64,000 nt of DNA from Pseudomonas sp. NKUCC02_KPG (GTDB lineage: Bacteria; Pseudomonadota; Gammaproteobacteria; Pseudomonadales; Pseudomonadaceae): NCBI RefSeq assembly GCF_019345465.1, contig NZ_JAHKRC010000001.1, positions 310,001 through 374,000 on the forward strand, given 5' to 3'. This document shows, in pieces, positions 28,370-57,626 of the stretch. Within the stretch, counting starts at the first letter, position 1. The number at the start of each line of letters is the position of its first letter. The position numbers and the translations under genes are program-made. The notes under the pieces are model-generated. The model was given only the letters and a program-made list of their open reading frames with translations. It was not told the DNA's origin and searched no databases.

Positions 28370-29194
28370 ATGTCACGCTTTCTTTCTGCCGTCCTGTTGC
28401 TGTGCCTGACCCTCAACGCGCACGCAGCTGACAGTTACATCACGCGCTTATTGAATAAACCGGTGCCGGGCGGTGTTGCCGTGATTGAGCTGGGGACCGG
28501 CGCGCAAGCACCCAAGGCAACCTATGATGGCAAACCGGTGCTGGTGATCAAGGAGCAGGACACCTGGCGGGCGATTGTCGGCATCCCGCTGACGGTAAAA
28601 CCGGGCCCCCAGTCAATCATCAGCGGCTCGCGGGAACTGAGCTTCACGGTGGGCAACAAGAAATACCCCGAGCAGCGCATCACGCTGAAGAACCAGCGCC
28701 AGGTCAACCCCAACCCGGCTGACATCAAGCGAATCGACAACGAGCTGGCGATTCAGATCAAGGCTTACCGTACTTTCAGCCCCAACACTCCGAGCAACCT
28801 GCTGCTGGACAAACCGGTCAACGGACCGCTGTCCAGCAAGTTTGGTGTGCGCCGCTTTTTCAACGGTGAAGAACGCAACCCCCACGCTGGCCTCGACTTT
28901 GCCGTACCTGCAGGTACGCCCATCAAAACCCCGGCGGCCGGTAAGGTGATCCTGATCGGCAACTACTTCTTCAATGGCAACACGGTGTTCGTGGATCACG
29001 GCCAAGGCTTCATCAGCATGTTTTGCCATATGTCGAAAATTGACACCAAGGTTGGCCAGCAACTGGCTCGTGGCGACGTAGTGGGCAAGGTCGGCTCCAC
29101 CGGACGCGCCACAGGCCCCCATATGCACTGGAACGTCAGCCTCAATGACGCCAGGGTTGACCCGGCAATTTTCATCGGGGCCTTCCAACCCTGA
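28370..29194 (+). CDS. M23-family metallopeptidase (peptidoglycan endopeptidase)
   Basis: A 274-residue exported protein. Its signal peptide MSRFLSAVLLLCLTLNAHA is cleaved before ADSYI. An N-terminal beta domain (about 25-150) precedes the LytM/M23 domain. Zinc-binding motifs are NPHAGLDF (H..D) and GPHMHWNV (HxH), with the expected second His in FCHMSK. The active-site set is complete, so it should be an active cell-wall hydrolase. It starts 3 bp after xseA and is likely co-transcribed. A weak hairpin (GGGCATGCCTCG / CGAGGTATGTCC) follows the stop. Confidence 0.93.
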   Translation: MSRFLSAVLLLCLTLNAHAADSYITRLLNKPVPGGVAVIELGTGAQAPKATYDGKPVLVIKEQDTWRAIVGIPLTVKPGPQSIISGSRELSFTVGNKKYPEQRITLKNQRQVNPNPADIKRIDNELAIQIKAYRTFSPNTPSNLLLDKPVNGPLSSKFGVRRFFNGEERNPHAGLDFAVPAGTPIKTPAAGKVILIGNYFFNGNTVFVDHGQGFISMFCHMSKIDTKVGQQLARGDVVGKVGSTGRATGPHMHWNVSLNDARVDPAIFIGAFQP

Positions 29195-29206
29195 TTACGC
29201 CATAAA

Positions 29207-29244
29207 AACAGGGCATGCCTCGCAGCACCCGAGGTATGTCCTGC
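29207..29244 (+). terminator. Weak hairpin after the M23 peptidase gene
   Basis: Imperfect stem CAGGGCATGCCTCG / CGAGGTATGTCCTG about 13 bases after the stop codon. Only a short T-rich stretch follows, so termination strength is uncertain. Confidence 0.5.
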
Positions 29245-29381
29245 CTTGAAGTTGCGCAATATTAGATTTACACAAAACAAAATACAGCAATTAAAACTCG
29301 TATTTTCTTCACATACGAGCATTTATCTCAATGTTTTTTATGCGCTTGCCATCTCTCAGTCCAGTGGTTAGGGTTGAGCTT

Positions 29382-29459
29382 ATGAAAACCTCTCACACCC
29401 TCATCCTGCTCCGCCAACATCGCAGCCTTTGCCTCGTCAGCGCACGACTGCAAAGCTAA
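29382..29459 (+). CDS. Leucine-rich leader peptide of leuA (candidate attenuator peptide)
   Basis: A 25-residue ORF, ATG at 29382, TAA at 29457-29459, with six leucines including the cluster L-I-L-L (CTC ATC CTG CTC) at residues 7-10 and later L-C-L. It is located 81 bp upstream of leuA. Its last codons overlap the sequence that can form two alternative hairpins (see next feature). It is expected to be translated only to sense charged tRNA-Leu. The function is inferred from composition and position; no homologue was compared. Confidence 0.6.
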   Translation: MKTSHTLILLRQHRSLCLVSARLQS

Positions 29460-29491
29460 TTGCGGTGCCTCGCCCTCTGCTTTGTATTTTT
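29427..29491 (+). promoter_or_regulatory. Alternative hairpins (putative leuA transcription attenuator)
   Basis: The segment GCAAAGC at 29450-29456 can pair with CTTTGC upstream (29427-29432, anti-terminator) or with GCTTTG downstream (29479-29484). The downstream hairpin is followed directly by TATTTTT (29485-29491), as in an intrinsic terminator. The two pairings are mutually exclusive. The upstream partner lies inside the leader peptide near its later leucine codons, so a ribosome stalled at the early leucine cluster would leave the upstream pair free. Confidence 0.5.
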
Positions 29492-29539
29492 CCGGCTGGC
29501 CGCGTCTGAATAGTCGGCACGCATATTAAGGATTGCCTG

Positions 29540-31219
29540 ATGACCATGCTCAAAAACCCGTCTTCCAAATACCGCGCCTTCCCGGTCATTGATTTGCCTG
29601 ATCGTACCTGGCCATCAAAAACCATCACCAGTGCGCCTGTCTGGTGCAGCTCCGACCTGCGCGATGGCAACCAGTCGCTGATCGAGCCGATGGATGCGGT
29701 AAAAAAGCTGCGCTTCTGGAAGACCCTGGTCAGTGTTGGCGTAAAGGAAATCGAGGCATCGTTCCCGGCTGCGTCGCAGACCGACTTTGATTTTGTGCGC
29801 ACCCTGATCGAAGACGGCCACATCCCGGACGACACCACCATCCAGGTGCTGACCCAGGGCCGTGAAGACTTGATCGCACGCACTTTCGAGTCGTTGCGTG
29901 GGGCGAAAAAAGCCATCGTTCACCTGTACAACGCCACCTGCCCTGCGTTTCGCCGCATCGTGTTCAATCAGGACAAGGACGGCATCAAGGAAATCGCGGT
30001 CAGCGCCGCCAAGCTGTTCGTCAAATACGCCGCCCAGCAGCCCGAAACCCACTGGACATTCGAGTACTCGCCAGAGACGTTCAGCGCCACTGAGCTGGAG
30101 TTCGCCAAGGAAGTCTGTGACGCAGTGATCGAGGTCTGGAACCCGACACCTGAGCACAAGATGATCCTCAACTTGCCTGCCACTGTTGAGTGCGCCACCC
30201 CTAACATCTACGCCGACCAGATCGAGTGGTTCGGCCGCAACATCAACCGCCGTGACAGCGTCTTGATCAGCCTGCACACCCACAACGACCGTGGCACCGG
30301 TGTTGCCGCAACCGAACTGGGCCTGATGGCTGGCGCCGATCGTGTCGAAGGCTGCCTGTTTGGCAACGGCGAGCGTACCGGCAACGTCGACCTGGTGACG
30401 GTGGCCTTGAACATGTACACCCAGGGTCTGGATCCACAACTGGACTTCTCGGACATCGACGGTGTGCGCAAAGTGGTCGAAGAGTGCAACCAGATTCCGG
30501 TTCACCCTCGTCACCCGTATGTGGGCGACCTGGTCCACACCGCGTTCTCCGGCTCGCACCAGGACGCTATCCGCAAAGGCTTCGCCCAGCAAAAACCGGA
30601 CGCCCTGTGGGAAGTGCCGTACTTGCCAATCGACCCGGCGGATATTGGCCGCAGTTATGAAGCCGTGATCCGGGTTAACAGCCAGTCGGGCAAAGGCGGA
30701 ATTGCTTACCTGCTGGAGCAGGAATACGGCATCAGCTTGCCACGCCGCATGCAGATCGAATTCAGCCAGGTCGTTCAGCGCGAAACCGATCGCCTGGGTC
30801 TGGAAATGACGGCTCAGCAGATTCACAACTTGCTTCGCACTGAGTACTTGCAGGCCAATACGCCTTACGCGCTGGTCAGCCACCGTTTACAGGAAGAGAA
30901 CGGCCATAGCGCAGTCGAGGTTGAAGTGTCGGCCAAAGGCGATGGCGAAACCAACCTGCGCTGGAGCGGCAAGGGCAACGGCGCGCTGGAAGCGCTGGTC
31001 GCTGGCCTGCCGGTCAACGCCGAAATAATGGACTACAACGAACACGCGATTGGCGCGGGCACCAACGCCAAGGCTGCGGCTTACATTGAACTGCGGGTCA
31101 ATGGCGGGCGTGCCGTACATGGCGTGGGTATTGATGAAAACATCACCACGGCAAGCTTCAAGGCCGTGTTCAGCGCCCTGAACCGCTCGCTGACCGAAAC
31201 CGAGGCTAAAGCGGCGTAA
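29540..31219 (+). CDS. leuA: 2-isopropylmalate synthase
   Basis: Condenses acetyl-CoA and 2-oxoisovalerate, the first committed step of leucine synthesis. It has 559 residues, the long LeuA2-like form (N-terminus [17 protein letters not shown]). Metal and substrate motifs are [11 protein letters not shown] (Asp ligand), [12 protein letters not shown] (HxH metal ligands) and [15 protein letters not shown]. The C-terminal allosteric LeuA domain (about 430-550) gives leucine feedback and ends [25 protein letters not shown] lies 7 bases before the ATG. It is preceded by a leader peptide and hairpins, and followed by a strong terminator. Confidence 0.97.
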
Positions 31220-57541: not shown

Positions 57542-57626
57542 GCCCTGATGGCGGAATTGGTAGACGCGGCGGATTCAAAATCCGTTTTCGAAAGGAGTGG
57601 GAGTTCGAGTCTCCCTCGGGGCACCA
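57542..57626 (+). tRNA. tRNA-Leu (CAA anticodon)
   Basis: 85-nt class II tRNA with encoded CCA. Acceptor GCCCTGA pairs with TCGGGGC; D-loop GGAATTGGTAGACGC; anticodon loop TTCAAAA (anticodon CAA at 57576-57578); long variable arm; T-arm GGGAGTTCGAGTCTCCC. The 3' end is a common integration site, and an integrase gene follows 165 bp downstream. Confidence 0.97.

Follow-up and report, generated by a model that had tools for sequence, protein, structure and literature searches.

The region upstream of leuA in Pseudomonas carries a conserved 25-codon leader ORF, and the reading we favour, at a probability of roughly 70%, is that it controls leuA by ribosome-mediated leucine attenuation. The leader would encode a sensor peptide translated from a leaderless transcript, and a ribosome slowed on it is probably how the cell detects a lack of leucine. 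Transcription would be cut off by Rho across most of the genus, the option that we favour, and perhaps by an intrinsic terminator in the clade of the window, by which we mean the whole 64,000-nucleotide stretch of Pseudomonas DNA analysed here. Sequence comparison supplies the ORF, its conservation, the selection on its peptide, the promoter spacing, the hairpin at the leader end (P1) and the C-rich spacer that follows.

The leader ORF and its promoter

The leader ORF sits between a promoter and leuA (Table 1), a gene of the long leuA_yeast type. As originally predicted, it has 25 codons, from the ATG at 29382 to the TAA stop at 29457-29459, and six of them encode leucine: codons 7, 9, 10, 16, 18 and 23 (CTC, CTG, CTC, CTT, CTC and CTG, respectively), with CTC-ATC-CTG-CTC at codons 7-10. 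The original prediction also had the ORF end inside GCAAAGC; this motif occupies 29450-29456 and the stop begins at the next base, so that the ORF ends directly after it. The possible partners of the motif are CTTTGC at 29427-29432 and GCTTTG at 29479-29484, the latter followed by TATTTTT at 29485-29491.

A search with the LeuA N terminus in 149 genomes of the genus, including that of the window, found a match in all 149, and DNA upstream of leuA was taken from 110. A leader of the same kind, recognized by a peptide regular expression, lies in 106 of these 110 upstream regions, the window's included. The four that the expression missed comprise a frame-shifted leader (L066), a shortened one (L119), one broken by an insert (L120) and a region in which none was recognized (L095). 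The L066 leader is out of frame through a short deletion near codons 12-13, which could be a sequencing error. Inserts lie inside the leader in both L102 and L120; the two halves share one frame in L102 (MNAIHCLILLRQHA ... LRLVSQRLRG) and do not in L120.

The leader ATG follows the -10 box at 7 nt in 95 of the 106 loci and at 6 nt in another 10; the remaining locus, with 2 nt, is L102, in which the leader is interrupted. A Shine-Dalgarno-like 4-mer is present 4-16 nt upstream of the ATG in 2 of 106 loci. Sigma-70 promoters start transcription ~6-8 nt after the -10 box. Because the ATG lies 6-7 nt after this box in 105 of 106 loci and is almost never preceded by a Shine-Dalgarno-like motif, the mRNA should begin at the leader AUG or at most 1 base from it. 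Among the 80 pattern matches listed for named genomes, the spacing is 7 nt in 74 and 6 nt in 4, with 2 too short, and two other genera of the family show 7-8 nt at each of 12 loci. Searching the window's own genome for TTGCCA-N17-TAGGGT-N7-ATG returned one match with zero mismatches and 10 others, all at 2 mismatches; the reversed-pattern control of this search gave 3 matches.

Table 1. Coordinates, in the window, of the leuA leader region and its features
Feature	Position	Strand	Basis
-35 box TTGCCA	29346..29351	+	TTGCCA in 97/106 loci; spacer of 17 in 103/106
-10 box TAGGGT	29369..29374	+	TAGGGT in 89/106 loci
Predicted transcription start (A of leader ATG)	29382..29382	+	Promoter spacing
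Leader peptide ORF, MKTSHTLILLRQHRSLCLVSARLQS	29382..29459	+	Sequence, translation, regular expression and codon conservation
G-free 5' stretch, codons 2-8	29385..29405	+	G count in distinct leaders
Conserved Arg-Gln-His, codons 11-13	29412..29420	+	95, 96 and 95 of 96; amino acids kept with synonymous drift
Hairpin P1	29424..29457	+	AGC-C-TTTGC (29424-29432) with GCAAAGCT (29450-29457); inner TCGT (29434-29437) with ACGA (29444-29447)
Codons 16-18 with Leu16 and Leu18, candidate control codons	29427..29435	+	Leu in 95 and 96 of 96
Rare Arg codon CGA, codon 22, near-invariant	29445..29447	+	CGA in 95/96 leaders
Rival hairpin, TGCAAAGC (29449-29456) with GCTTTGTA (29479-29486), then TTTTT (29487-29491)	29449..29486	+	7/9 distinct RLQS-type leaders
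C-rich, poorly structured, rut-like spacer	29460..29494	+	C/G 2.17; putative Rho loading region
Possible weak hairpin P2 (GCCG:CGGC), upstream of leuA Shine-Dalgarno	29499..29518	+	By eye
leuA Shine-Dalgarno AAGGA	29528..29532	+	Sequence, by eye
leuA, 2-isopropylmalate synthase	29540..31219	+	NF002991 895 bits, TIGR00970 794 bits, both above cut-off

Selection on the leader peptide and its spread

Exactly 25 residues are encoded by 96 of the 106 leaders (81 of them distinct), and codon counts and a dN/dS-like ratio were taken from these alone, all at loci found through leuA. Excluded from the codon counts were the 10 leaders of other lengths and the named set L155-L234, the search pattern of which fixes codons 11-13, 19, 20, 22 and 23. 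A minimum spanning tree built from the DNA of the 81 distinct leaders gives a ratio of 0.16 in frame, against 1.87 and 2.99 in the other frames, so the leader is most likely translated and its product under selection. This ratio, together with the presence of the leader in 106 of 110 upstream regions, indicates that the ORF is not a chance one. Its 5' part is poor in G: codons 2-8 hold zero G in 49 of the 81 distinct leaders, and a mean of 0.44 compared with the 2.26 expected from leuA codon usage (s.d. 0.09).

Near-fixed residues among the 96 leaders are, besides R11, Q12, H13, L16 and L18 (counts in Table 1), V19 (96), S20 (95), R22 (95) and L23 (96). Leucine occupies codon 7 in 92 of 96, codon 10 in 80 and codon 9 in 41, and codon 9 encodes Gln in 55. 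The claim of a leader peptide before leuA with conserved Leu codons thus holds at codons 16, 18 and 23 and mostly at 7 and 10, and it fails for CTC-ATC-CTG-CTC as a conserved feature, given the Gln at codon 9; by these counts, the Leu run of codons 7-10 is not the conserved portion of the leader. Codons 11-13 accumulated 35 synonymous and 2 nonsynonymous changes on the tree, and codons 11-13, 16 and 18 pooled show 66 and 3, a synonymous drift from which it follows that selection acts on the amino acids. Codon 22 (CGA) shows zero synonymous changes, and the CGA share of Arg codons rounds to 0.00 in the first 100 codons of leuA. CGA codons may be decoded slowly. The V19 codon is GTC in 95 of 96 leaders, and in the window and the fluorescens-type leaders these fixed V19 and R22 codons fall in the inner stem of P1, TCGT:ACGA.

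Conservation at R11, Q12, H13, V19, S20 and R22, none of them leucine, and the 35-to-2 ratio at codons 11-13 would both suit a nascent-peptide sensor, since plain codon-counting attenuators have no need of such residues. Together with a co-factor, either free leucine or a Leu intermediate, R-Q-H-x-x-L-x-L-V-S-x-R-L in the exit tunnel would then arrest the ribosome near the leader end, and the arrest would set leuA expression; TnaC is a case of peptide arrest with Trp as co-factor. We think this unlikely. The last two residues of the leader vary (for example, PG, PS, QS, RG, SR and SA), the V19 and R22 codons are fixed at the nucleotide level, where RNA structure may explain part of the conservation, and the effect of TruA loss described below points to tRNA decoding.

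Conservation at the peptide level would also fit a leader product that acts in trans, with the attenuated leader RNA serving as a small RNA or the peptide being functional, in the manner of rnTrpL and peTrpL of Sinorhizobium, which offer a precedent for a leaderless leader with trans functions (PMC10117765, PMC7298713). We hold this to be very improbable: leuA adjoins it downstream in all 80 listed matches in named genomes (for L161, through a looser start pattern), and the window's own genome holds a single copy, at 3.2e-15, with the next match at 0.254.

Leader matches at E <= 2.1e-6 were found in 66 of 119 genomes of the family, covering 11 of its 19 genera. Among 229 genomes of the class, none outside the family was convincing; the best match (G405, 3.4e-4) was rejected, as simple patterns found neither an R-Q-H-type leader nor a leuA motif in the surrounding 3 kb. 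All of the 80 pattern matches listed for named genomes (at least 119 stretches) belong to Pseudomonas or Halopseudomonas, and 11 of these 80 loci share their leader-to-leuA DNA with a locus of the first set. When 14 family genomes with no strong match were inspected by eye and with an ORF list, 12 showed no leader, L278 had a divergent one and L280 a shortened one, the last two with the same promoter spacing. Viewed by eye, L276, L277 and L280 lack a full leader yet keep a similar promoter; the triplet expected to start the leader is ATT in L276 and ATC in L277, which suggests that the leader start was lost. Elsewhere, LeuA of G106 is close to the window's (96% over the first 100 residues), and its leader-to-leuA DNA is the same as that of P. 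lundensis L1802. Nineteen leaders had no Pfam or NCBIfam family match at E <= 1.

The leader-end hairpin and the proposed cut-off of transcription

When the leader end is folded alone (nt 40-78), RNAfold pairs AGC-C-TTTGC with GCAAAGCT to give P1, and in every one of the 81 distinct leaders the 3' arm, which runs from codon 23 to the stop, takes part in 4 or more pairs. The 5' partner lies at codons 15-17 in 48 leaders and more 3' in 33, mostly at codons 17-19 in the examples inspected. This register tracks the Leu codons, L18 being CTG in 30 of the 33 second-register leaders versus 5 of the 48 first-register ones; in these predicted folds, P1 is kept through a register shift that goes with the codons of L16 and L18. 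Its stability is -13.39 versus -12.72 (s.d. 0.17) after synonymous column permutation, with 0 of 300 permutations as good, a test that kinship inflates.

Folding the whole leader gives the pairing of TGCAAAGC with GCTTTGTA. Of the 9 distinct leaders of the RLQS type, the type of the window's clade, 7 have it; counted by locus, with two duplicates among the 11, the figure is 8 of 11. A U-run stands behind it in 6 of these 7 distinct leaders. The earlier structural claims accordingly divide. The leader-end hairpin of CTTTGC with GCAAAGC is supported, forming in RNAfold and kept across distinct leaders; the two mutually exclusive pairings can both form, and the rival of GCAAAGC with GCTTTG was seen only in the window's clade, so that alignment keeps the ORF and P1 across the genus and not this second pairing. 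Likewise, the predicted logic of leucine attenuation is partly supported, by the leader, its conserved Leu codons, P1 and the rise of LeuA on TruA loss described below, and not by the Leu run or by a terminator common to the genus.

In the window's clade, TGCAAAGC:GCTTTGTA with its U-run could nevertheless be an intrinsic terminator, a stall on Leu codons 7-10 then allowing the leader-end hairpin to form and leuA to be read. All seven leaders with the pairing have Leu at codons 7 and 9, and the freed 3' arm of P1 pairs better in distinct RLQS-type leaders than with shuffled downstream DNA (-11.71 versus -9.39; 0 of 40 shuffles as good). We consider this switch conceivable but doubtful. Two leaders of this type, L007 and L110, lack the pairing, and those recorded for other clades do not include it; the U-run is lost in P. 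lundensis (L004 and L205), there is no standard terminator call, and partners permuted within the type do as well (50 of 60 as good). Its members are close relatives, which makes their conservation weak evidence. The terminator so proposed would be blocked by a ribosome that had reached the stop codon and favoured by one at Leu16 or Leu18; because the latter would free GCAAAGC for that structure, the original model needs the stall to occur at codons 7-10.

The same comparison was made for the other leader types. Against shuffled downstream DNA, the freed 3' arm gains in distinct fluorescens-type leaders (-14.38 versus -12.97; 0 of 40 as good). It shows no gain in the putida-type, where 17 of 40 shuffles do as well, or in the remaining leaders, where 8 of 40 do. 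When the partners are instead permuted within each group, in tests that kinship of the sequences inflates, the arm pairs better than the permuted sets in the fluorescens-type (0 of 60 as good) and in the putida-type (1 of 60), with no gain in the other leaders (24 of 60), as in the RLQS-type.

No intrinsic terminator was called by a consensus scanner on either strand of 28800-30200 (0 found, 1.8 expected in shuffles), and none with a U-run kept genus-wide was found, one being possible in the window's clade (the 6 of 7 distinct leaders above). Several candidates were dropped. A lenient definition (at least 6 bp, loop of at most 45, 5 of 8 T) returned 99 of 173 loci versus 20 of 173 when shuffled, in a pool that contains duplicates and holds 163 distinct leader-to-leuA sequences. 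Pairing of an arm before the U-run with the spacer beat the shuffled spacer in only 34 of the 61 fluorescens-type loci tested (of 88) and in 5 of 11 loci of other leader types; this test covered 2 of 27 putida-type loci, both better, and 0 of 8 loci of the window's clade. Pairing of GCGGTGCC in the spacer with GGCAGGCCGC was dropped by eye, as the spacer side varies without compensation.

After the leader stop, the spacer has C in excess of G in 161 of 163 distinct sequences. Intergenic DNA upstream, taken as a control, is C-rich too (C/G 1.42; C exceeds G in 153 of 161), so the C-richness of the spacer is a matter of degree. The spacer also folds less than shuffled versions of itself, with a mean z of +0.64 across 154 distinct stretches of 40 nt. 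Its resemblance to a Rho loading site is suggestive only. Hairpin P2, further downstream, was not retained as a conserved element: related hairpins occur in many relatives and are weak (mean z -0.63, 142 distinct).

Control could instead be translational, with the 5' codons of the leader pairing with the ribosome-binding region of leuA, as proposed for the actinobacterial LEU element. Pairing between the leader 5' region and the leuA start exceeds shuffles in the putida-type (-7.74, shuffled -6.34, s.d. 0.28). The values are -8.06 versus -7.78 (s.d. 0.19) in the fluorescens-type, -7.95 versus -7.98 in the RLQS-type and -6.97 versus -7.69 in the others, and no group shows a clear gain over permuted partners; we hold this explanation to be quite improbable.

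Proposed leucine sensing, TruA and related leaders

In the attenuation mechanism that we prefer, RNA polymerase would start at the A of the leader ATG, as the promoter spacing suggests, and a ribosome could load at once at the leaderless 5' end. With ample charged Leu-tRNA, it would pass Leu16, Leu18, the rare CGA codon 22 and Leu23 and leave at the stop. The leader-end hairpin would then close, the C-rich spacer would lie bare and the transcript would end short of leuA, in most of the genus probably through Rho. With charged Leu-tRNA scarce, the ribosome would wait on Leu codons, mainly 16 and 18; the 3' arm of P1 would be freed to pair downstream, or the stalled ribosome would shield the RNA, and leuA would be made. 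The response to leucine would be a direct one. We favour a stall that turns leuA on because of the position of two conserved codons, Leu16 and Leu18: both fall within or beside the 5' arm of P1, the place from which control codons would act on that hairpin.

A variant joins sensor and cut-off in a gammaproteobacterial attenuator that has no classical terminator: the nascent chain of the leaderless leader, through R-Q-H-x-x-L-x-L-V-S-x-R-L, and a near-invariant, possibly slow CGA would time or arrest the ribosome over the hairpin, with leucine setting the Rho cut of the leuA transcript. We give this variant low credence.

Published proteomics of a P. putida truA deletion bears on the role of decoding. 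LeuA rose 4.2-fold (p 3.2e-5) in the mutant and was among the 18 of 2856 quantified proteins that changed significantly by at least twofold, 10 down and 8 up (PMC7822408). TruA pseudouridylates tRNA positions 38-40, confirmed there for tRNA-Leu CUG and UUG, and, according to the same source, the his operon is derepressed in E. coli and Salmonella that lose the enzyme (PMC7822408). Slowed Leu decoding leading to more LeuA fits the direction that attenuation predicts, and the effect could be indirect. HisD and HisC were also raised in the mutant, and PMC7822408 describes a His leader as sought and not found and names leuA only in the list of raised proteins and a table. In the window's own genome, the only ATG-started ORFs of 8-60 aa with at least 2 His upstream of hisD (L299) are two nested ones at the hisG end. 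Deletion of truA can therefore act by other routes, since HisC and HisD rise with no visible His leader. Two strains named P. putida carry the leuA leader (L162 and L204), and the mutant strain is PaW85/KT2440. It counts against the mechanism that P. putida is the source of the TruA result, yet the putida-type 3' arm shows no gain over shuffled downstream DNA.

The leader resembles the enterobacterial leu, ilv, trp and his attenuators in having a short ORF between promoter and biosynthetic gene, with codons for the end product and a hairpin that overlaps the leader end; that of E. coli leuABCD encodes 28 aa with 4 Leu (PMC6123439). Unlike them, it lacks a conserved run of Leu codons, a conserved terminator with a U-run, a Shine-Dalgarno sequence of its own and an Rfam match, and its peptide is conserved at non-Leu residues. 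Reading of a leader ORF with no Shine-Dalgarno sequence is shared with S. meliloti trpL, a leaderless leader peptide (PMC10117765), and with C. glutamicum ilvBNC, the leader of which has no ribosome-binding site according to the title of Morbach 2000 as cited in PMC4046766. S. meliloti trpL is read from the mRNA 5' end, whereas here the leaderless start is predicted from promoter spacing, and both cases concern other bacterial groups and operons.

Leader peptides with Leu codons before leuA are also found with the actinobacterial LEU element (PMC1262725) and in C. glutamicum (PMC4046766). In the LEU element, the run of Leu codons pairs with the leuA Shine-Dalgarno sequence in a pseudoknot, and the LEU-element cases described there likewise have no terminators (PMC1262725). 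Unlike in that element, the Leu run is not conserved here and pairing of leader to start exceeds shuffles only in the putida-type. Rho-dependent leader attenuation has been suggested for mycobacterial cys leaders, which the same article likens to E. coli tna (PMC1262725). As in the cys leaders, a leader ORF is followed here by pyrimidine- or C-rich RNA with no obvious terminator, and Rho would be the putative factor. The leuA leader would respond to shortage, unlike tna, which responds to an inducer.

If the mechanism is right, Pseudomonas gains a leucine attenuator that operates from a leaderless mRNA, and the rise of LeuA in P. putida on losing tRNA pseudouridylation has a candidate explanation. 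The leader would offer a test case of whether sensing by leader peptides depends on codon supply, on the nascent chain or on both. Titles and abstract openings of the open-access literature yielded no leuA leader peptide in Pseudomonas, although one survey may list it. For published start sites, leuA is absent from the main texts of PMC3460626 and PMC3247240; it is also absent from those of PMC8297930 (P. aeruginosa 3' ends) and PMC2965389 (premature terminators). The window and the loci of seven relatives matched no Rfam leader family, Leu_leader included, at the gathering threshold. This suggests that attenuators of such a form can escape terminator-based searches and Rfam models. The sole Rfam match at that threshold in the window is a tRNA gene at 57542-57623.
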